Positions 897 to 16,846 of a DNA stretch of 17,725 nucleotides are shown one piece after another. Positions within the stretch are counted from its first letter, which is position 1, and every line of letters starts with the position of its first letter. Source of the stretch: Actinomycetospora sp. (GTDB taxonomy: Bacteria; Actinomycetota; Actinomycetes; Mycobacteriales; Pseudonocardiaceae); contig JAICLN010000035.1 in NCBI GenBank assembly GCA_025925615.1, positions 1-17,725 of the forward strand, read 5' to 3'. The notes under the pieces were generated by a model. That model saw only the letters and a program-made list of their open reading frames with translations. It had not been told where the DNA came from and ran no database searches. Both the position numbers and the translations under genes were made by a program.

Positions 897-970
897 GTGG
901 CCTTCGGCCCTGTGAGCACTTTCCGGGGCTATGACCCCGGAAAGTGCTCACGAGCGACGGAGTCGCACAC
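897..970. repeat. Three-hairpin boundary element, copy A (bidirectional terminator-like)
   Basis: A perfect 17-bp stem, GTGAGCACTTTCCGGGG (912-928) against 935-951, encloses the loop CTATGA. It is flanked by two small hairpins: GGCC-TTC-GGCC at 899-909 and GCGAC-GGA-GTCGC at 954-966. The same three-part layout recurs at 15219-15302 (opposite orientation), 16777-16846 and, with another core, 14579-14685. It lies between two convergent genes, which suits a U-less bidirectional terminator. It also contains the TGA stop of the - strand gene (948-950) and starts directly after the TAG stop of the + strand gene (894-896). Confidence 0.85.
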
Positions 971-1715
971 ATGCGAACGGGATCGCGACGGCGCCCATCC
1001 CGAGTCCGCCGACGAGGGCCGACCCGGGCAGGCCGAAGACGGCCAGGTGGGCGAGCACCGACGATGCGTAGACCCACAGGTAGAGCGCCGACGCGGGCCC
1101 CGACCCCGGGCCCGGCCCCAGCACCCGGTGCAGCGCCCCGATCACCAGCACGGCCACGACCAGCCAGCCGACGAAGTTCGTCAGCGGGATGCCCGGCACC
1201 AGCGGCAGGGACGGCGAGGGCGCGAGCCAGACCCAGTGGCCGGCCGCGACCATCTGCGGGTCGAGGAAGAGATCCCAGGTGGCCAGCGCGACCGCGCCCA
1301 CCGCCACGACCGCCCCGCCGCGCACCGCGAGCGCCCGCCCGACGACGAGCGCCGGCCAGGCCATCATCGCCCAGGCCAGCGGGACCACGACGGGGACGCC
1401 GAGCAGCTCCGGGCCGAGCGTGCCGGTGTAGACGTACGGGCCGAAGGGCAGGCCGGTGGCCAGCCCGACCGCCTCGGCGACGAGACCCCCGCCGCCGGCC
1501 ACACCCACGAGCCCGACCCCGCCGCGCACGCCGTGCACGCGTACCACGTCGACGAGCGAGGCGAGGAAGAACACCACGACGCTGCTGACCGTCACCGCCG
1601 TCGTCAGCGAGGCGGGCATCAGCGGATAGACGATCTGCACGAGCACCGCGGCGCCCACGAGGATCCAGGACGGGGCGGTGGACCGCAGCACCGGCCGCGA
1701 GGTGGTCACCACCAT
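948..1715 (-). CDS. Carotenoid biosynthesis membrane protein (CruF / DUF422 family)
   Basis: This 255-residue, strongly hydrophobic protein, with about six or seven membrane spans, matches the carotenoid-biosynthesis family that includes CruF-type hydratases, which add water to the 1',2' end of acyclic carotenoid ends. Visible family landmarks are EAVGLATGLPFGPYVY (about 81-96), TWDLFLDPQMV (146-156) and PGIPLTNFVGW (174-184). I chose the ATG at 1715 because the longer reading from 1832 adds an Arg/Pro-rich segment with no family similarity. The gene diverges from a GT2 glycosyltransferase and desaturase, the expected partners for making a glycosylated hydroxy-carotenoid. Its last residues (about ACVRLRRS) and its TGA stop are encoded by repeat element A, so the C-terminus is partly repeat-derived. 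Exact reaction is inferred from family and context. Confidence 0.85.
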   Translation of the reverse strand: MVVTTSRPVLRSTAPSWILVGAAVLVQIVYPLMPASLTTAVTVSSVVVFFLASLVDVVRVHGVRGGVGLVGVAGGGGLVAEAVGLATGLPFGPYVYTGTLGPELLGVPVVVPLAWAMMAWPALVVGRALAVRGGAVVAVGAVALATWDLFLDPQMVAAGHWVWLAPSPSLPLVPGIPLTNFVGWLVVAVLVIGALHRVLGPGPGSGPASALYLWVYASSVLAHLAVFGLPGSALVGGLGMGAVAIPFACVRLRRS

Positions 1716-1807
1716 GAGAGGAACCCCCGGGACGCGTCGAGCTCTCCGACCCACGTCCTCTTCGTGACCGCTCTGCGGCGCCGATCGGGCGTGCCTAGGG
1801 TCCCGGG
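1716..1807. promoter_or_regulatory. Divergent promoter region of the carotenoid locus
   Basis: This 92-bp gap separates the CruF-type gene (-) from the glycosyltransferase (+). On the + strand TAGGGT (1796-1801) resembles an actinobacterial -10 box and ends 6 bp before the GTG at 1808, so the glycosyltransferase mRNA may be leaderless; no ribosome binding site precedes that GTG. I do not see a convincing -35 box. On the - strand a GGGGG run lies about 8 bases before the CruF-type ATG and may serve as its ribosome binding site. Confidence 0.4.
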
Positions 1808-2932
1808 GTGCCCGTCGTGCACCTACACACACCCGTACGTCTCCTCGTGATGTGCGGCTCCCTGCTCGCCGCCGCCGGGACGCTCCACCAGCTGGTCAAC
1901 CGGCAGGCGCTGCGCCGACCCCCGGACGCACCGCCCCCGGTGGACGTGCCGGTGTCGCTGCTGGTGCCCGCCCGGGACGAGGCCCGCCGGATCGCGCCGA
2001 CCGTGCGCTCACTGCTCGCGCAGCAGGGCCTGGCGGACGTGGAGATCCTCGTGCTCGACGACGGGTCCACCGACGGCACCGCGGACGTCGTCACCGAGGT
2101 CGCGGGCGGGGACCCGCGGCTGCGCGTGCTCACCGGCCCGCCCCCGCCGTCGGGCTGGCTCGGCAAGCCGCACGCCTGCGCCCGGCTCGCCGACGCGGCC
2201 GGCGGTGAGATCCTCGTCTTCGTCGACGCCGACGTCGTGCTCGCCCCGCACGCCGTGGCGGCGGCCGTGGCCGTGCTGGGCGGGCCCGAGCCGCTGGCCC
2301 TGCTCTGCCCGTGGCCGCGGCAGCTGGTCACCGGTCCGCTGGGCCGGCTCGTGCAGCCGCTGCTGGCCTGGTCGTGGCTGACGACGGTGCCGCTGCGGGT
2401 GGCCGAGCGCAGCGGCCGGCCCTCGATGGCGCTCGGATGCGGCCAGTTCCTGCTCGTCGACGCGGCGGCGCTCGCGCGGGCCGGGGGCTGGGCGGCCGTG
2501 CGGGGCGCCGTGCTCGACGACATCTCGCTGGCCCGGGCGGTACGGCGCAGCGGCGGTCGGACCGGGGTCGCCGACGGGTCCGGGCTCGCGACCTGCCGGA
2601 TGTACGACTCGGGACCCGAGCTGCGCGCGGGCTACCGCAAGTCGCTGTGGGCCGCGTTCGGCTCGCCCGCGGGGGCCGTCGCCGTCGGGGCCGCGCTCGC
2701 CCTGGTCTACGTGCTCCCCCCGGTGGCGGCGCTCACCGGTTCCCGCACCGGTGCGGCCGGGTACGCCGCGGCGGTGGCCGGACGAATGCTCGCGAGCCGC
2801 TTCGTCGAATCCCGCAGCGGGTGGGACGTCGCGGCCCACCCGCTGTCGATCCTGGCCGTCCTCGGCCTGCTGACCTCGTCCTTCGTCGGGCGCGCCCGCG
2901 GCTCGCTGCGCTGGAAGGGACGGGCGGTGTGA
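1808..2932 (+). CDS. GT2-family glycosyltransferase, probably carotenoid glycosyltransferase (CruG/CrtQ-like)
   Basis: The 374-residue product is a membrane-associated family 2 glycosyltransferase. An N-terminal hydrophobic segment (about 10-25) precedes the GT-A domain, with the nucleotide-sugar motif DDGSTDG (84-90), a metal-binding DAD (140-142), GCGQF (210-214), a probable catalytic DD pair (237-238) and GYRKSLW (275-281) in the position of the usual QxxRW-type motif. Further hydrophobic helices follow from about 289. It lies beside a CruF-type hydratase and overlaps a CrtI/CrtD-type desaturase by 4 bp, which is the context of CruG/CrtQ enzymes that glycosylate hydroxylated carotenoids. 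The GTG at 1808 is preferred because the motif layout is complete from there and a -10-like box lies just upstream. Sugar donor and acceptor cannot be told from sequence. Confidence 0.85.
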   Translation: MPVVHLHTPVRLLVMCGSLLAAAGTLHQLVNRQALRRPPDAPPPVDVPVSLLVPARDEARRIAPTVRSLLAQQGLADVEILVLDDGSTDGTADVVTEVAGGDPRLRVLTGPPPPSGWLGKPHACARLADAAGGEILVFVDADVVLAPHAVAAAVAVLGGPEPLALLCPWPRQLVTGPLGRLVQPLLAWSWLTTVPLRVAERSGRPSMALGCGQFLLVDAAALARAGGWAAVRGAVLDDISLARAVRRSGGRTGVADGSGLATCRMYDSGPELRAGYRKSLWAAFGSPAGAVAVGAALALVYVLPPVAALTGSRTGAAGYAAAVAGRMLASRFVESRSGWDVAAHPLSILAVLGLLTSSFVGRARGSLRWKGRAV

Positions 2933-4488
2933 GCCGCGTCGTCGTGGTCGGGGCCGGTCTCGGCGGGCTCGCGGCGGCCGCCCGCCTGGCCGCCGCCGGG
3001 CACGAGGTCGAGGTCCACGAGGCGTCCGGGCGCCCGGGCGGCAAGCTCGGCGTGGTCGAGCGTGACGGCTTCGTCTTCGACACCGGACCGTCGCTGCTGA
3101 CGATGCCCGGCCTGCTCGACGAGCTCTTCGCGGCCACCGGTGGCCCGGTCGACCTGCCCGTGACGGCGGTCGACCCCGCCGCCGAGTACCGCTTCGCCGA
3201 CGGGACCCGCCTGGTCCTCCCGCACGACCCCGCCCAGGTGCCCGCCGCCCTCGACGACGCCCTCGGCGTCGGGGCCGGGGCCTCCTGGGAGCGGTTGCAC
3301 GAGCGCTCGCGGCACCTGTGGTCCCTGGTCGGCCGCGACGTGCTGCGCCGACCGCTGACGACCGCGGCGCTGCTGCGCATGAGCGCCCACCCGTCGGGGC
3401 TGCGCGCCGTCGCGCCCTGGCGGTCCGTGCGCGGGCTGGGACGGCGCCGGCTGCCGGACCCCCGGTTGCGGACCTGGCTGGAGCGCTACGCGACCTACTC
3501 GGGCTCCGACCCGCGGCGGACCCCGGCGGTGCTGTCGGTGGCGGCCTTCGTCGAGCAGGAGTTCGGCGCCTGGTGGATCCCGGGTGGCCTGCGGCGCCTC
3601 GTCGACGCCCTGATGGCCCGCTGCCGCGAGCTCGGCGTCGCGGTCCACCTCGGCTCGCCGGTCGAGGCGGTGCTGGTGGACCGCGGCCGGGTGTCCGGGG
3701 TCCGGGTCGCGGGGCACGACCGGGCCGCCGACGTCGTCGTGAGCAACGCCGACGCCGCCGAGCTGCACGAGCGGCTGCTGCCCGACGGTGCCGCCCCCCA
3801 CGCCCGACGGCGCGTGCGGCGCACCCCACGCTCGAGCGCCGGCTTCGTGCTCCTGCTCGGCCTCGCGGGACGACGGCCCGGGGCGGCGCACCGCGTGTGG
3901 TTCCCCGACGACTACACCGCCGAGTTCGACGCGGTGTTCGGTCGCCGGCCCTGCCCGGTCCAGGACCCGACGATCTACGTCCACGCCCCCGACGACCTGG
4001 CGATGCGCCCCGACGACGACTCCGAGGGCTGGTTCGTGCTGGTCAACGCCCCCGTGCACGATCCGGACGGCGGCGTCGACTGGGAAGCCCCCGGCCTGCG
4101 GGAGACCTACGCCGGGCACGTGCTCGACGTCCTGGCCGCCCGCGGGACCGACGTCCGGCCCCGGCTGCGGTTCCTCGAGATCCGGACGCCCGCGGACCTC
4201 GAGCGCGAGACCCGTGCCCCGGGCGGGGCGATCTACGGCACCGCCTCCCACGGCCCGCGCGCCGCGCTGCGCCGCCCCGCCAACACCGGTCCCGTGGCGG
4301 GGCTCTACCTCGTCGGCGGGTCCGCCCACCCCGGCGGCGGCATCCCGCTGGTGCTGATGTCCGCGGAGATCGTCGCCGACCTCATCGGCCCGGCGTCGGC
4401 GGCTCCGGCGGGAACCGCGGCGGCACCGAACGGACGACGCCCCACGTCAGCTGGACCAGCCCGACCGTCGCCAACCCCGCCCACGTGA
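2929..4488 (+). CDS. Phytoene desaturase family FAD oxidoreductase (CrtI/CrtD-like)
   Basis: A 519-residue flavoprotein of the CrtI family. The N-terminus is a Rossmann FAD site, VVVVGAGLGGLAAAARL, with GxGxxG at 8-13 and the ribose-binding Glu at 31, followed by the family motif SGRPGGKLG. The C-terminal FAD motif is YLVGGSAHPGGGIPLVLMSA near residues 460-480. The family dehydrogenates acyclic carotenoids. Next to CruF- and CruG-like genes, a CrtD-type 3',4'-desaturation is as likely as the classical phytoene reaction. The GTG at 2929 overlaps the glycosyltransferase TGA in a GTGA, which fits translational coupling; the reading frame stays open further upstream but that part is antisense-like, non-homologous sequence. 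The last 36 codons overlap the 3' end of the convergent phosphatidyltransferase gene and encode a Pro/Ala-rich tail without family similarity. Confidence 0.88.
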   Translation: MSRVVVVGAGLGGLAAAARLAAAGHEVEVHEASGRPGGKLGVVERDGFVFDTGPSLLTMPGLLDELFAATGGPVDLPVTAVDPAAEYRFADGTRLVLPHDPAQVPAALDDALGVGAGASWERLHERSRHLWSLVGRDVLRRPLTTAALLRMSAHPSGLRAVAPWRSVRGLGRRRLPDPRLRTWLERYATYSGSDPRRTPAVLSVAAFVEQEFGAWWIPGGLRRLVDALMARCRELGVAVHLGSPVEAVLVDRGRVSGVRVAGHDRAADVVVSNADAAELHERLLPDGAAPHARRRVRRTPRSSAGFVLLLGLAGRRPGAAHRVWFPDDYTAEFDAVFGRRPCPVQDPTIYVHAPDDLAMRPDDDSEGWFVLVNAPVHDPDGGVDWEAPGLRETYAGHVLDVLAARGTDVRPRLRFLEIRTPADLERETRAPGGAIYGTASHGPRAALRRPANTGPVAGLYLVGGSAHPGGGIPLVLMSAEIVADLIGPASAAPAGTAAAPNGRRPTSAGPARPSPTPPT

Positions 4489-5107
4489 GCGCGAACACGG
4501 TGCCCCACGTCCAGCCCACCCCCGGCACGCCCGCCGGGAGCGCCGCGGCGCCGACGGCGGCCAGCGCGACGACGATCAACCGGGTCGGCCGCTCGGCCAC
4601 CGTCACCGCACCCACCCCGGGCATGCCGACCGCCTGGGCCCGCGCCCGGGCGTACTCGTGCACGAACGTCGCCGCCGCCAGGCCAACCGCCGCGGCGAGC
4701 GGCGCCCCGAGGGCGAGCAGCACGGCGACGAGCAGGAGGTCCCCGAGCCGGTCGGCGACGGCGTCGAGCACGGCCCCCAGCGGTCGCGCCCGCCCGGTCG
4801 CCAGCGCCACCGCGCCGTCGAGCCCGTCGGCGATCCCGGCGAGGACCACGAGCAAGGCGGACACCGCGGGCAGTGCGCTTCCTGGCGGCCCGACGACGAC
4901 GAGCGCCCACGCCCCGACCAGGAGCAGCACCCCGGCCGCGGAGAGCAGGTCCGGCGGGACCCGCGACACCGGGCCGGCGGCGAGGACGCGGATCAGCCGC
5001 AGCCAGCCGCGGACCACCGGCGAGGGCCGGAGGTCACCGTGGCGCGCCGACCACCCGGCGTCGGGGTCGGCGGGGCCCTCGACCCCGTCGGGGCCCTGCG
5101 ACACCAT
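4382..5107 (-). CDS. CDP-alcohol phosphatidyltransferase family protein
   Basis: A 241-residue integral membrane protein with several hydrophobic helices. The signature DxxDGxxARx8GxxxDxxxD is recognisable at D94, D97, G98, A101, G111, D115 and D119, with one deviation: the usual Arg after A101 is Leu102. Enzymes of this family transfer a phosphoalcohol between a CDP-activated lipid or alcohol and an acceptor, making phospholipid head groups. I start the gene at the ATG at 5107; an upstream extension to 5389 is Gly/Arg-rich and runs antisense to the next gene. The 3' end overlaps the convergent desaturase gene by 107 bp. The gene diverges from the YihY-type gene with only 45 bp between. Substrate is unknown, and the missing Arg may be a subfamily trait. 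Confidence 0.82.
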   Translation of the reverse strand: MVSQGPDGVEGPADPDAGWSARHGDLRPSPVVRGWLRLIRVLAAGPVSRVPPDLLSAAGVLLLVGAWALVVVGPPGSALPAVSALLVVLAGIADGLDGAVALATGRARPLGAVLDAVADRLGDLLLVAVLLALGAPLAAAVGLAAATFVHEYARARAQAVGMPGVGAVTVAERPTRLIVVALAAVGAAALPAGVPGVGWTWGTVFALTWAGLATVGLVQLTWGVVRSVPPRFPPEPPTPGR

Positions 5108-5152
5108 CGACCCAGCCTGCCAGCGCCCACCCCGCGGCGCCCGGGAGCGGAC

Positions 5153-7012
5153 GTGACCGCGGCAGGGGCCATCCCGCGACGCGCACGGGCCCGGGCCGCG
5201 GCCGGCGAGGTCCGGCGCACCTTCCCGGGCAGCGACGTCGCGCTCTGGGCCGCCGGCGCGACCTACTTCGGCATCATCGGGCTGGTCCCGCTCGCGCTGG
5301 TCTCGCTGTGGGCGGTCGGCCACCTCCTCGGCGCCGGCGCGGTGCTGGGCGCGATGGAGGCCGCCGCCGGGGGCCTGCCCGCCGGCCACGGCACCCCGGA
5401 GGCGCTACGCACGCTGACCCGCACCGCGGTGTCGATGCCGTGGTGGCGGGCGCTCTTCGTCCTCTTCCCCGCCAGCCTCTACGGCGAGGGGCTGCGGCGG
5501 GCGTTCCTGCAGCTCTCGGGGGTGCCGGACCGGCTGACGGGGTGGCGCGGGCGGGCCGGGCTGCTCGGCGTCGCGGTCGTGGCCCCGTTCCTGGTGCTCG
5601 TCGTCCTCGCCGCGGCCCCGCTCGTCGGCCCGATGTACGCGCGCGGCGGCTGGTGGCTCGTCCTCGGCGTCGTCATCGCCTTCCACGTGGTGTGGGTGAC
5701 GATCTCGTCGGCCCTCGTCGCGCTGTTCCGCTTCGTGGCCCCCGGGCGCCTCGGCGTCCGGGCCCTGCTGGTCGGCGGCTTCGGCACCGGCTCGGTGCTC
5801 GCCGGGTTCCTGCAGGGCTTCGTGCTGTTCCTCGCCATCCCGGTGGAGTGGTCGGCGCCGTTCGGCGGACTGCCGATCATCGGGGCGGTCTCGGCGCTCG
5901 CGCTCTGGCTCTACCTGCTGCACCTGCTCGTGCTCGGCGGCTACCGCGTCACCGTGGTGCTCGACGAGATGCTCCCGCGGCGGGCCGCCCGTCGCCGACG
6001 GGCCGGTGCAGAGCGGGCCCCGGCCGGGAATGCTGGACGTATGAAGGCTGCCGTCTACCGCACGACCGGTCCCGCCACGGAGGTCCTCGCCGTCGAGGAC
6101 CTCGACGTCCCCGAGCCGGGGCCGGGCGAGGTCCGGGTGCGCATCACCCGGTCCGCCATCAACCCGACCGACTGGAAGACGCGCGCCGGGCTGACCGGCG
6201 GCGACCCGGAGGACTTCCAGGTCCCCCACCAGGACGGAGCGGGCGTCGTCGACGCCGTCGGGCCCGGCGTCGAGGACCGCGAGGCCGGCCAGCCCGTCTG
6301 GATCTTCTTCGCGGCCTTCGGGAACCGGTACGGCACCGCGGCGGAGTACAGCGTGCTGCCCGCCGAGCGCACGGTGCCGCTGCCCGACGGCGACTCCGCC
6401 GACCTCGGCGCCTGCCTCGGCGTCCCCGCCGTCACCGCAGCGCAGTGCCTGGGCGGCGATCCGCGGGCGCTCGACGGGGCGACGGTGCTGGTCGCGGGGG
6501 GTGCCGGCGCGGTCGGCCACTACGCGATCGAGCTGGCCAAGCACGCGGGCGCGCGGGTCATCGCGACCGTCAGCTCCGAGGAGAAGGGCGAGCTCGCGCG
6601 GGCCGCCGGCGCGGACGTCGTCGTGAACTACCGCGAGCCCGGCGTCGTCGAGCGCGTCCGCGGGATCACCGAGCGGGTGGACCGGATCGTGGAGGTCGCG
6701 CTCGGGGCGAACCTCGACCTGGACCTCGCCGTCGCCGGGGCCCGCACCGAGATCGCGGTGTACGCCAACGAGCCGAACGATCCGGTGCTCCCGGTGCGCC
6801 GGTTCATGACCGCGAACGCGACGCTGCGCTTCGTCCTCCTCTACGGCGTGCGCCCCGACGACCTGGCCGCCGACCTCGCGTGGGTGCGGGACGCGGTGGC
6901 CGCCGGGGCCCTCACACCGCTGTCCATCACGTCCTTCTCACTGGACGACGTGGTCGCCGCACAGGAGGCGGTGGAGAACGGCGCCGTCGGGAAGGTCATG
7001 CTGGTGCCCTGA
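5153..7012 (+). CDS. YihY/BrkB-type membrane protein reading in frame into an NADPH:quinone reductase
   Basis: From the GTG at 5153, with GGGAGCGG at 5143-5150 as ribosome binding site, the frame encodes about 285 residues of a YihY/UPF0761 (BrkB, formerly 'ribonuclease BN') inner-membrane protein. Hydrophobic helices start near ATYFGIIGLVPLALVSLW (37-54) and end near LWLYLLHLLVLGGYRVTVVL. An Arg/Ala-rich linker (about 283-295) follows, and the frame then continues with no stop codon into a complete medium-chain reductase starting at ATG 6041, ending at TGA 7010-7012: 619 residues in all. Either this is a real fusion of a membrane anchor and a soluble reductase, or the membrane gene has lost its stop. 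In the +1 frame a TGA at 6042-6044 overlaps the reductase ATG as in normal coupled genes, so a late indel or sequence error is possible. The YihY role itself is not established. Confidence 0.7.
   Translation: MTAAGAIPRRARARAAAGEVRRTFPGSDVALWAAGATYFGIIGLVPLALVSLWAVGHLLGAGAVLGAMEAAAGGLPAGHGTPEALRTLTRTAVSMPWWRALFVLFPASLYGEGLRRAFLQLSGVPDRLTGWRGRAGLLGVAVVAPFLVLVVLAAAPLVGPMYARGGWWLVLGVVIAFHVVWVTISSALVALFRFVAPGRLGVRALLVGGFGTGSVLAGFLQGFVLFLAIPVEWSAPFGGLPIIGAVSALALWLYLLHLLVLGGYRVTVVLDEMLPRRAARRRRAGAERAPAGNAGRMKAAVYRTTGPATEVLAVEDLDVPEPGPGEVRVRITRSAINPTDWKTRAGLTGGDPEDFQVPHQDGAGVVDAVGPGVEDREAGQPVWIFFAAFGNRYGTAAEYSVLPAERTVPLPDGDSADLGACLGVPAVTAAQCLGGDPRALDGATVLVAGGAGAVGHYAIELAKHAGARVIATVSSEEKGELARAAGADVVVNYREPGVVERVRGITERVDRIVEVALGANLDLDLAVAGARTEIAVYANEPNDPVLPVRRFMTANATLRFVLLYGVRPDDLAADLAWVRDAVAAGALTPLSITSFSLDDVVAAQEAVENGAVGKVMLVP
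6041..7012 (+). CDS. Zinc-independent NADPH:quinone reductase (medium-chain reductase family)
   Basis: Read from the ATG at 6041 this is a complete 323-residue reductase of the quinone-oxidoreductase branch, which uses NADPH to reduce quinones or similar carbonyl compounds in the cytoplasm. The N-terminal GroES-like part has MKAAVYRTTG and INPTDWKTRAG. The nucleotide-binding domain has AGGAGAVGHYAIELAK (152-167), an AxxGxxG variant typical of quinone reductases, followed by AGADVVVNYRE. The Cys ligands of zinc alcohol dehydrogenases are absent. The length is normal for the family, so the ATG at 6041 is probably the native start even though the upstream membrane gene runs into it in frame. The ribosome binding site is weak (GGA 4 bases upstream, GGGAA further up). 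A strong hairpin follows the stop. Confidence 0.82.
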   Translation: MKAAVYRTTGPATEVLAVEDLDVPEPGPGEVRVRITRSAINPTDWKTRAGLTGGDPEDFQVPHQDGAGVVDAVGPGVEDREAGQPVWIFFAAFGNRYGTAAEYSVLPAERTVPLPDGDSADLGACLGVPAVTAAQCLGGDPRALDGATVLVAGGAGAVGHYAIELAKHAGARVIATVSSEEKGELARAAGADVVVNYREPGVVERVRGITERVDRIVEVALGANLDLDLAVAGARTEIAVYANEPNDPVLPVRRFMTANATLRFVLLYGVRPDDLAADLAWVRDAVAAGALTPLSITSFSLDDVVAAQEAVENGAVGKVMLVP

Positions 7013-7017
7013 CACGA

Positions 7018-7041
7018 CGGGCGTCCGGCCCCGGACGCCCG
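7018..7041 (+). terminator. Hairpin terminator after the quinone reductase
   Basis: Eleven-base arms CGGGCGTCCGG (7018-7028) and CCGGACGCCCG (7031-7041) form a near-continuous GC palindrome five bases after the TGA stop. There is no T-tract, as is common for actinobacterial terminators. Confidence 0.7.
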
Positions 7042-7088
7042 GCCCGGCGAGACCGCCGCCGTCCACCACCGACCCTGAGGAGTTGCCC

Positions 7089-7619
7089 GTGACCAGCCGT
7101 TCCGGCCGATTCGAGATCGTCCCCGACGTCATGCTCGCGTGGAACCCCGCGGAGGACCCGGAGAACGAGAGCGGGTGGGTGAGCTCCGCGGGGATGCAGT
7201 GGGACCTGGACGGCGAGCGGACGGGAGCCCGCACCAGCTGGCACCTCGCCGTCTCGCACTCGCGGGAGAAGCGGGTGGGCCCCGGGACCGTCGGCTGGAT
7301 CCACGAGTGGACCGGCCGCGGCCGGATCGCCGCGGTGATGGTCTTCGACAGCAACCCGTACAGCCGCACCGCGGGCGCCAACGAGGTCAACTGGTACGCC
7401 GACGGCGTGATCTGCGTGATCCCGGAGGAGGACCGGGTGACCGCGGAGACGATCATGTCGGACCCCGACTGGAAGCCGAGCGCGCCCTACACGGGGGCGC
7501 GCGGCCGGCAGTTCAAGGACGGGATGCCGGTGGCCGCCGGGAACGGGGCGGTGCTGCGCCGCCACGTCGACGAGGAGACGGCGCGCTGGCTCGGCCACGG
7601 CGCCGTCGCGGCCCGATAG
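7089..7619 (+). CDS. Hypothetical protein, family not recognised
   Basis: The 176-residue product matches no family I know. It looks soluble: no signal peptide or long hydrophobic stretch, many Trp residues, and a mixed composition typical of a folded domain. Notable segments are VSSAGMQWDLDGE, TVGWIHEWTGRGR, MVFDSNPYSRTAGANEVNWY and APYTGARGRQFKDGMP. The GTG at 7089 is chosen because GAGGAG (7077-7082) lies 6 bases upstream; the in-frame TTG at 7083 abuts that site and cannot use it. A terminator hairpin separates it from the upstream reductase, and choD follows 58 bp downstream behind its own probable promoter, so it is likely a single-gene unit. Codon use matches the neighbours, supporting a real gene. 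Confidence 0.75.
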   Translation: MTSRSGRFEIVPDVMLAWNPAEDPENESGWVSSAGMQWDLDGERTGARTSWHLAVSHSREKRVGPGTVGWIHEWTGRGRIAAVMVFDSNPYSRTAGANEVNWYADGVICVIPEEDRVTAETIMSDPDWKPSAPYTGARGRQFKDGMPVAAGNGAVLRRHVDEETARWLGHGAVAAR

Positions 7620-7634
7620 GCGGACATCTCGTAC

Positions 7635-7653
7635 CTGTGACCTTCCGTCACAG
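7635..7653. promoter_or_regulatory. Dyad-symmetric operator-like site upstream of choD
   Basis: CTGTGAC-CTTCC-GTCACAG is a perfect 7-bp inverted repeat with a 5-bp centre. It lies 24 bp before the choD start and overlaps or abuts the proposed -35 region, which is where a repressor or activator would bind. It resembles the Crp/GlxR half-sites TGTGA/TCACA, but the spacing is 7 rather than 6, so the binding protein is uncertain. Confidence 0.5.
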
Positions 7654-7671
7654 CTACCCACGGGTTAACTT
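7643..7671 (+). promoter_or_regulatory. Probable leaderless promoter of choD
   Basis: TAACTT (7666-7671) resembles a -10 box and ends 6 bp before the GTG at 7678, and TTCCGT (7643-7648) sits 17 bp upstream as a weak -35. No ribosome binding site is visible before the GTG, which fits transcription beginning at or near the start codon. The run GGGTTAACTTGA is clearly less GC-rich than its surroundings. Confidence 0.4.
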
Positions 7672-7677
7672 GACCCG

Positions 7678-10380: not shown

Positions 10381-11627
10381 CGAACGTCCTCGTCCGCGGG
10401 CGTGAGGGGCTCGTCGACATCCGGGTCGAGCAGGGCCGGATCGCCGAGGTCGGGCCGGACCTGCAGGCCGACCCCCGGACCCCGACGATCGACGGCGAGG
10501 CCCGCCCGGTCCTCCCCGGCCTCGTCGAGCCCCACCTGCATCTGGACAAGGCGATGCTCGACGCGCGCGAGCCCGGCGACGGCACCCTGGCCGGCGCCGT
10601 CGCGACGACGGCCCGGCTCAAGGCGGGCTTCACCCACGACGACGTCGTGGCCCGCGCCGAGGACGTCCTGCGCCGGGCGATCACCCACGGCACCACGCTC
10701 GTGCGCACCCCGGTCGACGTCGACCCCACGATCGGCTTGACCGGCATTGACGCGATGTTGGACGTGAAACAACGCTGGGCGGAGACGGTGACGCTGCAGG
10801 TCGTCGCCTTCCCGCAGGAAGGCATCGCCGCGCGCCCGGGCACCGACGAGCTGCTGGTCGAGGCGCTGCGCCGCGGCGTCGACGTCGTCGGGGCCTGCAG
10901 CTACGCCGAGGACGACGTCGAGGGCTGCCGCGACCACCTGCGCCGGGTCTTCGACCTCGCCGAGCGCTTCGACGTGCCCGTCGACGTCCACGCCGACTTC
11001 GACGTGGCCGCCAGCACCGACCCCCGCCACGCCCTCGCCGGCGAGATCGCCGCGATGACGGCGGCCCGCGGGTGGGGCGGGCGCACGACGATCGGGCACG
11101 TCACCACCCTCGCCGGGTACGACAATGCCACTGAGCACGCCGACAGGGCGGCGCGGCGCCGGCTGATCGACGACCTCGCCACCGCGGGCGTGGGCCTCGT
11201 CGTCCTCCCGCCCACCGACCTCTACCTGCAGGGCACCGCCGCGCCCGTCGCCGAACTCCTGGAGGGGGGCGTCGCCACGGCGCTGAGCAGCAACAACGTC
11301 CGCAACGCCTTCACCCCGTTCGGCACCGCGGACATGCTCGACGTCTGCCTGCTCGCCGCCCACACCCAGCCGTTCGGCACGCGCGCGGGCCTCGACCGCC
11401 TGCTCGACCGGGCCACGGCCGGCGCCGCCGCGATGCTCGGGGTCCCGGGCCACGACCTCGCGCCGGGTTCGCGCGCGGACCTCGTCGTCCTCGACGCGCG
11501 ACCACGAAATGGACTCCAGCCCGATCACCACACCGCGCTGCTCGACCGCGCGCCACGGCACACCGTCATCAGCGGCGGGCGTGTGGTGGCGCAGACACGG
11601 ACGACCACGACGCTGCACGCCCCCTGA
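10338..11627 (+). CDS. Amidohydrolase-superfamily protein, cytosine deaminase/AtzC-like
   Basis: This 429-residue protein is of the metal-dependent amidohydrolase type (CodA/AtzC branch), whose members hydrolyse C-N bonds of cyclic substrates. Metal-site landmarks are H66 and H68 in EPHLHLDKA with K71, H218 in VDVHADFD and H254 in GHVTTL. Two acidic positions differ: the Glu that follows the third His in CodA (HCDE) is Phe221, and the Asp ligand in the CodA GHDD or AtzC SDN motif is Asn319 in SSNNVRNAFTPFG. The remaining fold motifs, including the C-terminal APGSRADLVVLD, are intact. It overlaps pepE by 43 bp and is followed 20 bp later by a FAD/Fe-S dehydrogenase. The ATG at 10338 is the only good start before the conserved HLLLTNVLV. 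Substrate cannot be assigned. Confidence 0.82.
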   Translation: MAADPPRSTGHLLLTNVLVRGREGLVDIRVEQGRIAEVGPDLQADPRTPTIDGEARPVLPGLVEPHLHLDKAMLDAREPGDGTLAGAVATTARLKAGFTHDDVVARAEDVLRRAITHGTTLVRTPVDVDPTIGLTGIDAMLDVKQRWAETVTLQVVAFPQEGIAARPGTDELLVEALRRGVDVVGACSYAEDDVEGCRDHLRRVFDLAERFDVPVDVHADFDVAASTDPRHALAGEIAAMTAARGWGGRTTIGHVTTLAGYDNATEHADRAARRRLIDDLATAGVGLVVLPPTDLYLQGTAAPVAELLEGGVATALSSNNVRNAFTPFGTADMLDVCLLAAHTQPFGTRAGLDRLLDRATAGAAAMLGVPGHDLAPGSRADLVVLDARPRNGLQPDHHTALLDRAPRHTVISGGRVVAQTRTTTTLHAP

Positions 11628-11647
11628 TCGCCGAGCAGGATGGGGGC

Positions 11648-14600
11648 ATGACGAGTGCCCCGTCCCGACCGAGCACCGCGACCTCCCTCCTCGCCGAGGA
11701 GCTGGCCGGGGCGATGCGCGGCACGGTCCGGTTCGACACGGCGACCCGGGCAATGTGGTCGGCGGATTCGTCGAACTACCGCCACGTCCCGCTCGGCGTC
11801 GTGCAGCCCGTCGACCCCGACGACGTCGAGCGGGCCGTCGAGGTCACCCGCCGCCACGGGGTGCCGCTGCTCCCCCTGGGCGCGCGGACCAGCATCTGCG
11901 GGCAGTCGGTGAACGAGGCCGTCGTCGTCGACTTCCACCGGCACATGCACCGCGTGCTGGAGATCGACCCGGACGCCCGCACCGCCCGGGTCCAGCCCGG
12001 CACCGTCCTCGACGACCTGCGCGATGCGGCCCGCCCGCACGGGTTGACCTTCGGGCCGGACCCGTCCACGCACAACCGCTGCACGCTCGGCGGGATGATC
12101 GGCAACAACGCGTGCGGCTCGCACTCGGTGGCCTGGGGCAAGACCGTCGACAACGTCCGCGCGCTCGACGTGCTGCTCGCCGACGGCACCCGCATGCACG
12201 TCGGCGGGCCGATGGACGACGCGGCCATCGACGCGGCCGCCCGTCGTGCCGGCGCCGAGGGCCGGGTGTACGCGGACCTGAAGGCGCTGCGCGACCGCGC
12301 CGCCGACTTCGTCCGCACCGACACCCCGGATCTCACCCGCCGGGTCAGCGGCTACAACATCGACCAGCTCCTGCCCGAGCAGGGCTTCGACCTGGCCAAG
12401 GCCCTCGTCGGGACCGAGGGCACGTGCGTGACGCTGCTCGAGGCGACCGTGGACCTCGTCGAGTCGCCGCCGGTGCGCGCGCTCGCCGTCCTCGGCTTCG
12501 CCGACGCGTACACCGCCGCCGACCACGTCGTCCCGATCCGCGACCACGCCCCGCTGACGATCGAGGGCATGGACGTCGGTGTCATCGGCGCCCTGCGCGC
12601 GGCCCGCCCGGACGACCGCACCCACGAAGCGCTGCCCCGCGGCAAGGGCTGGCTCTACGTGGAGACCGGGGGCGCGACCCGCGAGGAGGCCCACGCCAAG
12701 GCCGAGGCGATCGCGCGGGAGATGGCGTGGGCGACGGTGGACACGAAGGTCGTCAGCGAGCCGAAGGCCATGCGGTCGCTCTGGAAGATCCGCGAGGACG
12801 GCTCCGGCATCGTCACCCGCGGGCCGGGCGGCGTCGAGGCGTGGCCCGGCTGGGAGGACGCGGCCGTGCAGCCGGCGCAGTTCGGCAACTACCTGCGGGA
12901 GTTCGACGCGCTGCTCTCGAAGCACGGCCGCAGCGGCGCCTACTACGGACACTTCGGCGACGGCTGCCTGCACGTCCGGATCGACTTCGACCTGCTCACG
13001 ACGCCGGGCATGCGCAACTTCCGCGCGTTCCTCGAGGACGCGGCCGACCTCGCCGTCGCGCACGGCGGGTCGCTCTCCGGGGAGCACGGCGACGGGCAGG
13101 CGCGCGCCGAGCTGCTCGCCCGGATGTACTCGCCGCGGATGCTGGAGGCCTTCGGCGACTTCAAGCGCGCCTGGGACCCGGACGGCCGGATGAACCCGCA
13201 CCGCGTCGTCGACCCGCCGCGCATCGACGACGACGTGCGCGTCTTCCTCGGCCAGCCGACGATCGGCTCGCGCACGCAGCTGGACTTCGTCGACGACGGG
13301 GTCCCCGACGGCGTCCGGGGCGGCTTCGCCTCGGCGACCCGGCGCTGCATCGGGGTGGCCAAGTGCATCACCGCCTCGGGCGGCGTGATGTGCCCGAGCT
13401 ACCGGGTCACCGGGGAGGAGAAGCACTCCACCCGCGGCCGGGCCCGCCTGCTGTTCGAGATGGCCTCCGGGCAGACGCTGCCCGACGGCTGGCGCTCCAC
13501 CGAGATGCGCGACGCGCTCGACCTGTGCCTGAGCTGCAAGGGCTGCGCCCGCGACTGCCCGGTCGGGGTCGACATGGCCACGTACAAGACCGAGTTCCTC
13601 GCCCAGCACTACGCGGGGCGCGCGAAGGACCGGCCCCGGTCGCACTGGTCGATGGGGTGGCTGCCGGCGTGGCTGCGCCTGGCCGGCTCGGTGCCCGGCG
13701 GGCCCCGGCTCGCGAACGCCCTCGCCCGACGGCCGGCGCTCGCGGGGATCGCCAAGAAGCTGGGCGGCATCGCCCCGCAGCGCTCGATCCCGCCGCTCGC
13801 GACCCGGCCCCTGCGCCGCCTGCTCTCCGGGACCGATCACACGGGCCGGGCCGACGTCGAGAAGCGCATCCTGCTCTGGCCGGACACCTTCACCGAGGCG
13901 TTCGACCCCGACCTGGCCCTCGACGCGATCGCCGTACTCGAGGCGCTGGGCTACCGCGTGGAGCTCCCGACGGCGGGGGTGTGCTGCGGTCTGACCTGGG
14001 TCACCACCGGTCAGCTCGGCGTGGCGCGACGGGTCGTCGAGCGCAGCCTCGAGCGGATCCGGCCGTGGCTGGAGGACGGCGTGCCCGTCGTCGGGCTCGA
14101 GCCCTCGTGCACCGCGGCGCTGCGGGGTGACTCGCTCAAGGTGCTGGGCCGCGACCACGAGCTGGCGGGGATCGCGTCGGCCTCGATCCGGACGTTCGCC
14201 GAGGTGCTCGCCGGGCACACCGAGGAGCTCGCGTCCCTCGCGGACGGGGCCGAGCGCAAGGCCCTCGTCCAGATCCACTGCCACCAGTACGCCGAGCTGG
14301 GCACCGACGCCGACCGCGCGGTGCTCGCGGCCCTCGGCGTGCAGGCGGACGTCCTCGACGAGGGCTGCTGCGGGCTGGCCGGCAACTTCGGGTTCGAGGA
14401 CGGGCACTACGAGGTCTCGACGGCGTGCGCGGAGCGCGGGCTCATGCCCGCGGTCCGGGCGGCGTCGGGCGACACCGCCGTCCTCGCCGACGGCTACTCG
14501 TGCCGCACCCAGATCCGCCAGCTCGACAACGGCGGCCACGAGCCCACCCACCTCGCCGCGCTGGCGGCGCAGGCGTTGGGCCTCCGGCCTCGTGCGTGCC

Positions 14601-14662
14601 CTATCGGCGTGCAGAATTATCCAGCCGTGTCTGAACACGTCGATGACACAGCACGCCGATAG
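11648..14662 (+). CDS. FAD-linked oxidase/Fe-S fusion protein (YdiJ/GlcD-GlcF type D-2-hydroxyacid dehydrogenase)
   Basis: A 1004-residue protein, close to the length of E. coli YdiJ. The N-terminal FAD domain (about 45-230) has PLGARTSICGQSV and GGMIGNNACGSHS. A FAD-oxidase C-terminal domain (about 250-520) has GHFGDGCLHVRIDF and GEHGDGQ. Next is a ferredoxin-like part with C567, C573 and C582 (MCPSYRVTGEEKHSTRGRA) and C627-x2-C630-x2-C633-x3-C637. Two CCG domains carry C779-C780 and C907-C908. The architecture oxidises D-2-hydroxyacids such as lactate, glycolate or 2-hydroxyglutarate and passes electrons through Fe-S centres to the respiratory chain. The ATG at 11648 has GGGGG close upstream. 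Family similarity ends around LAALAAQALG: the last 27 residues and the TAG stop lie in repeat element D, so the C-terminus is repeat-derived. Confidence 0.9.
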   Translation: MTSAPSRPSTATSLLAEELAGAMRGTVRFDTATRAMWSADSSNYRHVPLGVVQPVDPDDVERAVEVTRRHGVPLLPLGARTSICGQSVNEAVVVDFHRHMHRVLEIDPDARTARVQPGTVLDDLRDAARPHGLTFGPDPSTHNRCTLGGMIGNNACGSHSVAWGKTVDNVRALDVLLADGTRMHVGGPMDDAAIDAAARRAGAEGRVYADLKALRDRAADFVRTDTPDLTRRVSGYNIDQLLPEQGFDLAKALVGTEGTCVTLLEATVDLVESPPVRALAVLGFADAYTAADHVVPIRDHAPLTIEGMDVGVIGALRAARPDDRTHEALPRGKGWLYVETGGATREEAHAKAEAIAREMAWATVDTKVVSEPKAMRSLWKIREDGSGIVTRGPGGVEAWPGWEDAAVQPAQFGNYLREFDALLSKHGRSGAYYGHFGDGCLHVRIDFDLLTTPGMRNFRAFLEDAADLAVAHGGSLSGEHGDGQARAELLARMYSPRMLEAFGDFKRAWDPDGRMNPHRVVDPPRIDDDVRVFLGQPTIGSRTQLDFVDDGVPDGVRGGFASATRRCIGVAKCITASGGVMCPSYRVTGEEKHSTRGRARLLFEMASGQTLPDGWRSTEMRDALDLCLSCKGCARDCPVGVDMATYKTEFLAQHYAGRAKDRPRSHWSMGWLPAWLRLAGSVPGGPRLANALARRPALAGIAKKLGGIAPQRSIPPLATRPLRRLLSGTDHTGRADVEKRILLWPDTFTEAFDPDLALDAIAVLEALGYRVELPTAGVCCGLTWVTTGQLGVARRVVERSLERIRPWLEDGVPVVGLEPSCTAALRGDSLKVLGRDHELAGIASASIRTFAEVLAGHTEELASLADGAERKALVQIHCHQYAELGTDADRAVLAALGVQADVLDEGCCGLAGNFGFEDGHYEVSTACAERGLMPAVRAASGDTAVLADGYSCRTQIRQLDNGGHEPTHLAALAAQALGLRPRACPIGVQNYPAVSEHVDDTARR

Positions 14663-14685
14663 GGCACGCACACGTGCGTAGCACC
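14579..14685. repeat. Three-hairpin boundary element, copy D (variant core)
   Basis: A perfect 21-bp inverted repeat (14592-14612 with 14651-14671, starting GTGCGTGCCCTATCGG) encloses a 38-bp centre that holds its own CGTGT-CTGA-ACACG hairpin (14626-14639). The left flank GGCCTCCGGCCTCGTG (14579-14594) is identical over 16 bp to the complement of the matching flank in copy B. The right flank CACGTGCGTAGCACC forms GTGC-GTA-GCAC (14674-14684) and follows the CACGWGCG...GCAC pattern of the other copies. The element contains the TAG stop of the FAD/Fe-S gene (14660-14662) and the GTG start of the DUF5313 gene (14674). Confidence 0.8.
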
Positions 14686-15009
14686 AAGCGTCCGGGCGTG
14701 CTGCGCTGGCTGGCGTACGCGTTCGGGGCGCGGCTGCCCGTCACCTACGGGGCGTGGGTGCTGCACGACCTCACGGCCCGGACCTGGTTCGTGCGCCAGC
14801 TCGCGCGCACCGCGGTGCAGTGCGTGCCGGCTGGCCTGCTCGCGCTGCTGCCGGGACCGGCCTGGCTGCGGGTGGCGCTGCCGTGCTTCGTGCTCTTCTC
14901 GGCGCTGTTCATGGCCGCGATCTTCTCCCCGATGATCCGGGAGAAGCGGCTCTACCAGCACGGCTTCCTCCCGGAGCTGGTGCTCAACCCGGAGGATCGA
15001 GGGTCGTGA
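14674..15009 (+). CDS. DUF5313 family small membrane protein
   Basis: The 111-residue product matches the actinobacterial DUF5313 family, small proteins of unknown function. The characteristic N-terminal block is LRWLAYAFGARLPVTYGAWV (10-29) followed by LHDLTARTWFVRQLAR. Two hydrophobic segments (about 48-60 and 66-84) suggest a membrane hairpin, and the C-terminal REKRLYQHGFLPEL is typical of the family. The GTG start at 14674 lies in the right-hand small hairpin of repeat element D, so the first four residues (MRST) are element-encoded; no ribosome binding site other than the palindromic sequence is visible. It begins 11 bp after the FAD/Fe-S gene stop and may be read from the same mRNA if element D does not terminate it. 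Confidence 0.82.
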   Translation: MRSTKRPGVLRWLAYAFGARLPVTYGAWVLHDLTARTWFVRQLARTAVQCVPAGLLALLPGPAWLRVALPCFVLFSALFMAAIFSPMIREKRLYQHGFLPELVLNPEDRGS

Positions 15010-15172
15010 GTCGCTCGGGCGCCCGGATCGGGTCGTCCACCAACGGCACCCCCGCCCCGAGCCGCCCGAGCATGTCGTCCAGCTCCTCGACGTAGCTCTG
15101 CGCCCGCCCGGCGTCGACCCGCGCCCGCCGCACGGCGGCCAGCAGCGGCGTCCCGGCGGGGATCGCGGCCAT
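14984..15172 (-). CDS. Small hypothetical protein (62 aa)
   Basis: A short reading frame giving a plausible small soluble protein, MAAIPAGTPLLAAVRR at the start, a helical middle with VEELDDMLGRLGAG, and an acidic/Pro-rich end. The ATG at 15172 has GGAG 7 bases upstream; starts at 15184 (GTG) or 15175 (GTG) would add up to four residues. Its 3' end overlaps the convergent DUF5313 gene by 26 bp. It would otherwise leave a gap of 272 bp between DUF5313 and the protease stop. I know no family for it. Residue composition is more protein-like than the alternative frames here, but in DNA this GC-rich chance frames are common, so it is uncertain. Confidence 0.4.
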   Translation of the reverse strand: MAAIPAGTPLLAAVRRARVDAGRAQSYVEELDDMLGRLGAGVPLVDDPIRAPERLTTLDPPG

Positions 15173-15218
15173 CACCCGCTCCACCCCGACGGCTACGTCT
15201 GGTCGCGCTCCCCCGTCG

Positions 15219-15302
15219 GTGCGCCGTCGCGCTCGTGAGCACTTTCCCGTGTCGTACGGCGGAACAGTGCTGGAATGGTGCTCACGAGGCCGGAGGCCAC
15301 CT
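15219..15302. repeat. Three-hairpin boundary element, copy B (inverted relative to A and C)
   Basis: An outer 11-bp stem CTCGTGAGCAC (15232-15242) pairs with 15278-15288. The 35-bp centre is diverged and holds a further arm-like sequence (GGAACAGTGCT at 15261-15271). Small flanking hairpins are GCGC-CGTC-GCGC (15221-15232) and GGCC-GGA-GGCC (15288-15298). Read on the - strand, its ends match copies A and C in order, so it points the other way. It contains the TGA stop of the TAP-type protease (15282-15284). Confidence 0.75.
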
Positions 15303-16799
15303 GGCGCCGGGATCGGGCGGGCAGACGGTGCCCTCGGCCGGGGGCCGGCCCGGGTCGAGCAGGTAGGCCGCAGCGGCGTCCTGGGCGCAGTGGCTGGGGA
15401 GGTCGAGCGTGGTGTGGCCGAACCCGTCGACGACGAGGACGCGGGCCGCCGAGAGCACGGCGGCGGTGGCGCGGGCGATCGCGAGCGGGGTGTCCGGGTC
15501 GTCCCGGGCGTTGACCACGAGGGCCGGGGCGTGCAGCGGCGCGTTCCACGGGCCGAGCCAGCGGTCGGGGTCGATCGCCGGCCAGTCGACGCAGGCGGCC
15601 GTGTTCAGCGCGGCAGGCACCCCGAACAGCGGGTGGGCGGCCTGCTCGGCGGGCAGCAGCGCGGTGATCTGATCGGCGGTCGGCGTGACGACGTCGGTGC
15701 ACTGGATCGCGAGGAACGCCGCGGAGTGCGCGGGGGCGCCGGCGGCCGGATCGGGCACGACGGGGCCCGGCGCGAGTCCGGCGGGGGCACGGACGGCGAG
15801 CGTGCGGGCGAGCGAGGCGAGCCGCCCGCCCGACTCGAGCGCCGTCGCGACGCGGTCGGCCAGATCGGCGGAGCCGCCGGCGCGGGTGGCGGCCGCGATC
15901 GCGGCGTCGAGGCGGGCGCGCGGGTCGGCGCCGGGCGGTCCAGCGAGGGCGCACTGCGCGGGACCGGCCGTCGAGCAGGCACCGAGGAAGGCCTGCACCG
16001 ACGCGTCGCGCGCCGCCGCCACCCCGGCGCGGACGTCGACGGGCCGACCGGGGTCGGCGGTCCCGGCGTTCGCGGCGACGTCGAGGGCGCCGTCGACGAC
16101 GAGGGCGCGCAGGTGGTCGGGGAAGAGGTTCGCGTAGGTGGCACCGAGGACCGTGCCGTAGGAGTAGCCGTAGACGCTGATCTGCGGATCGCCCAGGGAC
16201 TGGCGGACCAGGTCGAGGTCGCGGGCGGCGTTCGCGGTGGACAGGTGGCGCAGCAGCTCGCCCGAGGCGGCCGCGCACGCCTGTCCGGCCGCGCGGGCCG
16301 ACGTCCAGAATCCGGCGGGGTCGGCGAGCGGGGAGCCGACCGGGGTCACGGGCTGCCCGTCGAAGGGCCCGCAGCGGACCGGGGTGCTCTGCCCCACCCC
16401 GCGGGGGTCGACCGCGAGGACGTCCATCCGCGCGCGGACCCCGTCGAACCGGCCGGCGAGGCGGCGCAGGCTCGAGGTGCTGGGCGTGCCCGGGCCGCCG
16501 TAGTTCACCGCGAGGGTGCCGATGCGATGGGCCGGGTCGAGGGCGGGCAGCCGGACCATGCCGAGCGCGATGGTCGGACCGGTGGGGTTCCGGTAGTCCA
16601 GCGGCACCGGCACCGTGGCGCACCGGAACGCGCCGCCGCACGGGCGCCAGGCGATCCGCGGCACCGCCGCCCCGTTCGTGCCCAGCACCCCGGGTGCCGA
16701 CGTGGCGCCCGCGGCGCCCGGTGCCGTCGCCGACGGTCCGGCGCACGCCGCGAGCAGCAGCAGGAGCGCCAGGAGGAGGTGGCTTCGCCATGTGAGCAC
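15282..16799 (-). CDS. TAP-type alpha/beta-hydrolase lipoprotein (tripeptidyl aminopeptidase family)
   Basis: A 505-residue exported serine hydrolase of the actinobacterial TAP/SlpD/Hip1 type, which removes short peptides from protein N-termini at the cell surface. The first 19 residues are a lipoprotein signal: R5, a Leu-rich core, then the lipobox LAAC with lipidated Cys19. The hydrolase domain has NYGGPG for the oxyanion region, VDPRGVGQS, and the nucleophile S213 in GYSYGT. The C-terminal TAP-like domain has the likely acid D434 in ARDDPDTP and H462 in DGFGHTT. The only standard start is the GTG at 16799, inside the stem of repeat element C; an in-frame TAA lies in that hairpin's loop just upstream. 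The stop lies in element B, and the last residues RWPPAS are also element-encoded. No ribosome binding site is seen. Confidence 0.88.
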   Translation of the reverse strand: MLTWRSHLLLALLLLLAACAGPSATAPGAAGATSAPGVLGTNGAAVPRIAWRPCGGAFRCATVPVPLDYRNPTGPTIALGMVRLPALDPAHRIGTLAVNYGGPGTPSTSSLRRLAGRFDGVRARMDVLAVDPRGVGQSTPVRCGPFDGQPVTPVGSPLADPAGFWTSARAAGQACAAASGELLRHLSTANAARDLDLVRQSLGDPQISVYGYSYGTVLGATYANLFPDHLRALVVDGALDVAANAGTADPGRPVDVRAGVAAARDASVQAFLGACSTAGPAQCALAGPPGADPRARLDAAIAAATRAGGSADLADRVATALESGGRLASLARTLAVRAPAGLAPGPVVPDPAAGAPAHSAAFLAIQCTDVVTPTADQITALLPAEQAAHPLFGVPAALNTAACVDWPAIDPDRWLGPWNAPLHAPALVVNARDDPDTPLAIARATAAVLSAARVLVVDGFGHTTLDLPSHCAQDAAAAYLLDPGRPPAEGTVCPPDPGARWPPAS

Positions 16800-16846
16800 T
16801 TTCAGGGGTTATAGCACCGGAAAGTGCTCACGTGCGCGCAGCGCAC
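16777..16846. repeat. Three-hairpin boundary element, copy C
   Basis: The core GTGAGCACTTTCAGGGG (16792-16808) pairs with 16815-16831 at 15 of 17 positions around the loop TTATAG. Small hairpins flank it: TGGC-TTC-GCCA (16780-16790) and GTGCGC-GCA-GCGCAC (16832-16846). Orientation is as in copy A. The left arm holds the GTG start of the TAP-type protease (16797-16799, read on the - strand). The right small hairpin abuts the TAG stop of the upstream glycosyltransferase gene (16847-16849). It may end transcription of that gene, and if transcribed through would bury the protease start codon in a stem. Confidence 0.85.

Follow-up and report, generated by a model that had tools for sequence, protein, structure and literature searches.

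The stretch analysed here, the window, is one contig of 17,725 bases from Actinomycetospora sp., and it carries four compact palindromic elements, named A, D, B and C in their order along the contig. They belong to a dispersed, high-copy family of gene-end repeats in Actinomycetospora (Pseudonocardiaceae), which confirms the observation made in a preliminary description of the window and gives it a wider range. Element A (895..970) opens with AGGT (895-898), continues with a small hairpin GGCC-TTC-GGCC (899-909) and a core palindrome (912-951), and ends with a second small hairpin GCGAC-GGA-GTCGC (954-966). The upstream HTH_67 gene on the + strand terminates at a TAG (894..896) that overlaps this AGGT; relatives that lack the element have TAA, TGA or TAG as the codon there. 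The convergent carotenoid-biosynthesis-like gene ends at a - strand TGA (948..950) within the GTGAGCAC arm of the core. Element C (16777..16848) has the same layout, with AGGT (16777-16780), GGC-TTC-GCC (16781-16789), a core (16792-16831), GCGC-GCA-GCGC (16834-16844) and a closing ACCT (16845-16848); on the - strand the upstream gene has its TAG stop (16847..16849, -) overlapping this end. To judge from its position, this element may also provide the GTG start of the hydrolase gene. The hydrolase TGA stop (15282-15284, -) lies inside the core of Element B (15217..15302), a decayed copy with no clean three-hairpin fold, in which GCGC-CGTC-GCGC (15221-15232) and GGCC-GGA-GGCC (15288-15298) flank a core of 51 bp (15235-15285). 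Element D (14577..14686) places GGCC-TCC-GGCC (14579-14589) and GTGC-GTA-GCAC (14674-14684) around a core with 21-bp arms (14592-14612 and 14651-14671). Such a core, GTGCGTGC...GCACGCAC, represents a second class, and here both arms carry a CCCTATCGGCG insert.

All four are recovered by a covariance model whose 55 input copies exclude them, at 895-970, 14577-14686, 15217-15302 and 16777-16848, with best-strand E values of 4e-12 to 1e-5. The preliminary description had located all four, and had recognized that the copies it placed at 897, 15219 and 16777 carry a GTGAGCAC...GTGCTCAC core and the copy at 14579 a different one; both points stand. Its positions were right, except that the first copy begins at AGGT and so spans 895-970 rather than 897-970. 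For the copy at 14579, a 16/16 end match overstates homology because native coding sequence makes up part of its end 1; in the relative G015, which is element-free there, GGGCCTGCG is the aligned counterpart of GGGCCTCCG. The same GGCC hairpin does recur in further copies of this core class. The folding energies of the window elements lie well under those of shuffled sequences (z -3.4 to -7.8). Among the copies folded, A and D form three hairpins, and B, C and two others a single long hairpin.

The genome is a fragmented metagenome-assembled genome of 3.52 Mb in 382 contigs, 60% complete. We surveyed 652 kb of it, comprising the window and 60 further contigs or parts of contigs picked for carrying core or end matches. 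This gave 64 detections, of which three, inside genes and chance-like, were discarded, leaving 61 elements on 53 contigs. Many copies align to a consensus unit of 74 bp, in which a 40-bp palindrome is set off by 2 nt on each side from two 4-bp hairpins, with AGGT before the first hairpin and ACCT behind the second. The palindrome starts with GTGAGCAC and finishes with GTGCTCAC, and the small-hairpin loops are mostly TNC. Core length is strikingly uniform, at 40 bp in 58 of the 61 elements, 39 bp in two and 51 bp in one. Of 122 core ends, 80 have a hairpin of 4 bp or longer at a distance of exactly 2 nt, compared with 2.5% of random 26-mers, and the two small hairpins are 44 nt apart in 44 pairs, with 0-3 pairs at each other spacing from 0 to 70. 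AGGT is present at 44/55 and ACCT at 45/55 of the fixed-layout copies, which were selected for GGT and ACC; pairing of this terminal inverted repeat would give a closed four-way junction.

The two small hairpins form an inverted pair, and their stem sequences are generally unlike one another. They differ in all 48 core-picked copies of this genome, where 6.4 identical pairs are expected, and are identical in only one of all 60 parsed copies (8.7 expected). The twelve A. chiangmaiensis copies (none identical, 0.5 expected) are uninformative on this point. A rule that the two hairpins must differ is not universal, because three of 18 copies in G003, a single-contig genome, have identical hairpins (5.1 expected). 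Short-read assembly might also contribute to the shortage by disfavoring perfect 74-bp palindromes. A count over the mixed set with G010 and G015 (6 against 19.4) was set aside, since retrieval of most of those copies by one end motif biases it. Two degenerate units were seen: at L138 3341-3380 nothing but GTGCTCAC separates the two small hairpins, as a deletion of the core between GTG repeats might leave them, and a collapsed remnant, TAGGTGCACGGAGCGCACCT, lies near L131 18925 at a place where G010 (L247) retains a full element.

The family is more abundant than expected by chance. The end motif GGCCTYCGGCCTYGTG has 23 exact matches in the 3.52 Mb and its reversed pattern none; with one mismatch allowed the counts are 44 and 2, and the core pattern is found at 68 places against none for its reverse. 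The reversed pattern served as the chance control in place of the GC-matched shuffle proposed earlier. Covariation was assessed on the 55 of 101 copies from this genome, G010 and G015 that have GGT and ACC at fixed distances (46 were excluded; the G010 and G015 copies were mostly retrieved by one end motif). Hairpin 1 is fully Watson-Crick paired in 53 of these copies (arm-shuffle mean 19.0) and hairpin 2 in 52 (arm-shuffle mean 21.7). Across the alignment 93.3% of cells are paired, compared with 78.9% after shuffling, double-changed cells number 263 against 113, and the covariation score is 0.361 against 0.124; none of 500 shuffles reached any of these values. Pairing falls to 33-46% when the partners are slid by one to three columns. 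The stems and the inner core arms covary; the outer six core pairs and GGT/ACC are uninformative in this respect because they were used for selection. The compensatory change that the preliminary description suspected in the small stems is supported, as is its picture of modular ends around an exchangeable core, dispersed in many copies. It had named few matches, lack of covariation and ends no commoner than a control as outcomes that would speak against a family; with the reversed pattern as control, we found the opposite of all three.

The elements lie at gene ends. Genes were called with a simple home-made caller based on codon bias. Of the 57 elements that could be classified (the other four are at contig edges), 34 lie between convergent and 23 between tandem genes, and none between divergent genes, against a background of 110 convergent, 360 tandem and 115 divergent neighboring pairs on the same contigs. 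G003 shows the same pattern, with 15 convergent, 7 tandem and no divergent among the 22 examined of 38 listed places. The facing stop codon falls within the unit at 88/94 gene ends in our genome and 33/37 in G003. At 46 of the 94 it is a TAG overlapping AGGT at the standard spacing, and TAG accounts for 58 of the 94 element-facing stops compared with 157/600 of all genes called on the same contigs. The base preceding AGGTG is T at 57/70 gene-facing ends and 10/18 other ends; GT precedes AGGTG at only 27 of the 70 gene-facing ends where AGGTG was found. In element-free relatives the stop codon has the same position as the element's TAG at site A, at site C and, for the G015 copy, at site B. At site B in our genome and in G010 the reading frame continues to the TGA inside the core. 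These observations support the placement at gene ends proposed in the preliminary description.

Comparison of orthologous sites shows that the same place can hold different cores. Scanning the syntenic stretches with the model detected A, B and C in G010 (its B and C copies being among the model input) and B and C in G015, and none of A-D in the retrieved stretches of G001, G003, G007, G014 and G016, so that among eight genomes A is present in two, B in three, C in three and D in one. Near A, G015 is rearranged and the G001 match lies at a contig end. Element D was not seen in any of the seven syntenic relatives, and the anchors around it, 120 bp apart in our genome, are 25-55 bp apart in G003, G015 and G010. 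By eye, gene-end sequence native to the locus appears to have been replaced at site A and at the L275/L121 site. A comparison that included few empty sites gave no clean target duplication; native sequence is partly replaced there, and a TA duplication is inseparable from the stop codon.

Each species has its typical core. In our genome 19 of 24 fixed-layout cores contain TTTCCGGGGY, G010 cores are mainly AAGTGTCGC-like and TTTCTGGTG-like, those of G015 are TAATTGAYGC-like and those of G003 AAGTGGGSC-like. A ATCCGTGC-type core occurs as a minority in our genome, G010 and G015, and from this distribution looks like an older ancestral type undergoing overwriting. Ten sites are shared with G010 and/or G015 (A, B, C, L119, L127, L129, L135, L159, L160 and L161), giving 13 pairwise comparisons, and in 12 of these the core type differs by eye. 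For the eight pairs that could be scored, those with both cores 40 bp long, 8-17 of the 28 inner positions separate our core from its ortholog and a median of 1-11 separate it from its own paralogs; it is closer to the paralogs in 8/8. Three species have the same hairpin 1 at site C, and the core there differs at 14 (G010) and 8 (G015) of the 28 inner positions. At site A our genome and G010 have in common an unusual 5-bp hairpin 2, with hairpin 1 and core differing. Because these hairpins are shared across species, the units at A and C look inherited, with parts replaced. Elsewhere, for example at L135/L249, both small hairpins have changed as well and pairing is retained. Loss of the core followed by its re-acquisition was considered as a route for the swap and set aside, since one core-less scar and one collapsed copy are too few to argue from.

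The family extends throughout the genus and beyond it. The covariance model matches 18/18 genus genomes, with 95 to at least 150 matches each at E<=0.01 (both strands counted), and under stricter filters at E<=1e-4 it matches 11 of 70 family genomes, G000 and G003 among them. In other genera the core block reads GTGAGTGG, and a search with GTGAGTGG-N14-44-CCACTCAC over 249 family genomes from 46 genera gives matches in 111 of the genomes and 26 of the genera. The count is at least five in about 55 of the 111; many others have 1-4, perhaps by chance. The reversed-pattern control gives 0 in most family genomes, with a maximum of 7 in one. Among the matches listed, these palindromes are exactly 40 bp long at 79 of 92 distinct places, 30-60 bp having been allowed. 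The second core class, GTGCGTGC...GCACGCAC, was found in 7/18 genus genomes (43, 15, 12, 7, 6, 1 and 1 copies); of the two singletons, one is non-palindromic and the other is in a genome with an equal control count. Most copies of this class also have a 40-bp core; a 59/60-bp subclass contains CCCTATCGGCGTGCT, an insert that Element D, as a member of the second class, has on both arms. In the clearest G015 copies of the class (L267, L273) GTTC and GAAC lie outside the GGCC hairpins. The full three-hairpin unit is typical of our genome, G010, G015 and the examined G003 copies, and less so elsewhere. It is not universal because many core-picked copies, as in A. lemnae and A. chibensis, are without one or both small hairpins, both hairpins passed in 12/24 A. 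chiangmaiensis copies, and 460 kb of loci from named relatives contain only eight hairpin pairs at the 44-nt spacing. A core much like our own type, without small hairpins, was also seen in Saccharopolyspora hirsuta (L109 3980-4019).

The explanation we favor, as somewhat probable, is that these are bidirectional gene-3'-end elements, similar to repetitive extragenic palindromic (REP) sequences, whose core is homogenized by copy transfer. A full copy would be a cassette of two outward-tagged small hairpins around a 40-bp palindrome, sitting at a stop codon that it often helps to form, for one flanking gene or for both. An mRNA from either strand would then pass from the stop codon into a small hairpin, an 18-bp hairpin and another small hairpin. 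The strong hairpin behind the last codon would most likely act as a bidirectional boundary of mRNA 3' ends, through protection, an aid to termination, or both; 3'-end protection appears as likely as termination. The sites themselves would be inherited across species, with the core, and sometimes a small hairpin, replaced by the current master sequence of the species. The most likely route of replacement would be gene conversion or some comparable transfer of sequence between dispersed copies, with the constant GGT, GTGAG and CTCAC blocks as anchors; such transfer explains most simply how cores could become homogenized throughout a species at inherited sites. Gene conversion was reportedly raised early for REPs, by Higgins et al. 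in 1988. Strict length despite free change of sequence points to a ruler, be it a structure or a protein. A bolder form of this explanation, which we put forward only tentatively, is a cassette system common to the Pseudonocardiaceae, in which hairpins at stop codons would serve as docks and the 40-bp core would be repeatedly replaced by a new species-wide master independently of RAYT (REP-associated tyrosine transposase) or any known transposase. An 18-bp-arm/4-nt-loop ruler would set the length, and an enzyme or a template-switch process would replace cores at existing sites.

Several observations weigh against homogenization of gene-end elements by copy transfer. The surveyed contigs were selected by element matches. 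Ordinary conversion of the RecA type works poorly on constant blocks this short, and at some sites a core swap could be mimicked by independent re-insertion at the same hot spot. The relative's core is closer to its paralogs in only 6/8 scored pairs (the exceptions are C in G015 and L159 in G010), and by eye the decayed core of L161 is similar to the G010 type. L119, one of the eight scored pairs, aligns on a single flank at a contig end, and because of that position misassembly in the repeat is possible; L119 14235 and L120 1197 are near-identical on one side of the element. Two of the covariation measures are less decisive than the others, with 17 pairs showing a double change against 14.9 after shuffling (12/500 shuffles reach 17) and 38 pair types against 34.6 (41/500 reach 38). 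The copies without one or both small hairpins in other species count here as well, as does the prediction of a T-tract terminator at none of the four window elements, the two sites predicted in the window lying elsewhere.

That last result bears equally on the idea that the elements are ordinary intrinsic terminators whose sequence likeness is incidental, which we regard as improbable. The convergent and tandem 3' placement and the highly stable hairpins of the window elements fit a terminator module, as the preliminary description had allowed. A canonical terminator was nevertheless rejected for want of a T-tract at the four elements, and a transcript ending here, if any, would therefore not do so by the classical route. 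Moreover, the invariant GTGAG(CAC), the 40-bp length, the two extra hairpins at fixed spacing and the homogenized cores go beyond what a terminator needs. Inverted pairs of uptake sequences at gene ends are known from other bacteria, and the octamer GTGAGCAC is near-invariant among the copies of our genome, so paired half-sites for DNA uptake or protein binding that serve also as gene-end hairpins come to mind. This we consider very improbable: outside the elements the octamer occurs 74 times against 43 expected (1.7-fold, in the 652 kb), and the flanking hairpins and fixed length would be left unexplained. An uptake sequence was rejected on the octamer count.

A more serious contender, if still a doubtful one, is a non-autonomous mobile element resembling a miniature inverted-repeat transposable element (MITE) or a REPIN (a REP doublet forming a hairpin), whose mover would be an enzyme not yet recognised, directed at stop codons or TA, with core types marking successive bursts and with repeated insertion into the same hot spots. 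Its inverted ends TAGGTG...CACCTA, the presence or absence of sites between species and the subfamilies typical of each species would all follow, and T before AGGTG at ten of the 18 ends that face no gene end is what one would predict were T or TA part of the element or of its duplication. Against it stand the lack of a clean target duplication at the compared sites and the hairpins at A and C that are common by descent despite a changed core. Nor did a transposase of the RAYT type, which the preliminary description suggested looking for, come to light: a search restricted to Y1_Tnp (PF01797) found it in none of 18 genus genomes (our genome 60% and two relatives 83-84% complete), so that RAYT/Y1 was rejected as the mover. 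The same search found the gene in four of 41 genomes, none in the genus, and in five of 14 known genomes used as positive control. Carriage by phages was likewise rejected, 27 and 30 viral stretches matching two 16-base patterns, which is about chance by an estimate that was not formally computed. Thirteen viral cores match at 14 or more of 18 arm positions, by eye none with flanking hairpins; one viral contig (L369 377-418) has a 42-bp GTGAGTGG...CCACTCAC palindrome with arms matching 18/18, also without them.

Compared with known systems, the family is REP-like in its behavior and stands outside REP/REPIN membership. REPIN/RAYT systems consist of two inverted hairpins around a variable middle and form populations of copies within one genome. 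The Actinomycetospora units likewise have two inverted hairpins around a middle part, but no RAYT was found in the 18 genus genomes and the middle is a fixed-length palindrome that is itself the part swapped. Intrinsic terminators are GC-rich hairpins followed by a U-tract; the units resemble them in having a strong hairpin right after the stop codon, usable both ways, and differ in their constant blocks, their family structure and the missing T-tract at the four elements. With MITEs they share terminal inverted repeats, AGGT...ACCT. The closest parallel is with the REPs tagged GTAG/CGTC, which are described in the main text of Di Nocera et al. 2013 (PMC3733652) as short palindromes in inverted pairs near gene 3' ends, mostly between convergent and tandem genes, with termini that often give a TAG stop, several heterodimeric families with unlike stems, some species-specific families, and a proposed tyrosine transposase for the GTAG type. 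Relative to that account, the Actinomycetospora units agree in being small, many-copy and at gene 3' ends, and in their TAG stop and inverted unlike hairpins. They differ in their (T)AGGT tag, whose constant AGGT is able to pair with ACCT, in place of an unpaired GTAG or CGTC, in tagged hairpins of only 11 nt with a third palindrome (nearly always 40 bp) between them, in the failure to find a tyrosine transposase in 18 genus genomes, and in their unlike cores at orthologous sites. The main text of PMC3733652 makes no mention of Actinobacteria, Pseudonocardia, Saccharopolyspora, Streptomyces or Amycolatopsis, and among the papers listed by a literature search, at the level of titles and abstract openings and covering few subscription journals, none describes these elements.

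Other repeats are present in the same genome. The asymmetric 15-mer CCCTATCGGCGTGCT is itself dispersed, partly within core arms of the 59/60-bp subclass and partly outside any palindrome; its places include window 14595 and 14668, L119 8404, L130 6279, L131 15318, L138 633, L161 4963 and L176 6418, among others. Further palindrome families are of GCGAAGGG, ACGAACGG, CGAGTGGACT and CATGATCGCCGGGATGACGAGCT types, and palindromes of this further kind lie at L121 8610, L123 12873, L132 1336 and L158 3568; at L123 19006, L136 5329 and L139 5531; at L132 1180, L148 1615, L148 1689 and L164 435; and at L138 3691 and L140 19889. Elsewhere in the window, 5153-7012 is a single open reading frame in which a zinc alcohol dehydrogenase comes after a BrkB-type domain, either a real fusion or an assembly error. 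An Rfam scan of the window gave three matches at E<=1, each below its gathering score and none at an element, and a tRNA search of the window found none.

The family bears on how short palindromic repeats spread without a visible transposase, and on whether the host benefits. Since the same sites can be traced while the core changes, insertion and in-place conversion are separable by comparison of strains. The number of GTGAGTGG-pattern matches ranges from 0 to 373 over 249 genomes of one family, the highest count being that of a 12-Mb genome (G202), and this range makes a search for the responsible gene feasible. If the units do form mRNA ends, they would constitute a compact, bidirectional gene-end module of actinomycetes that works without a T-tract.

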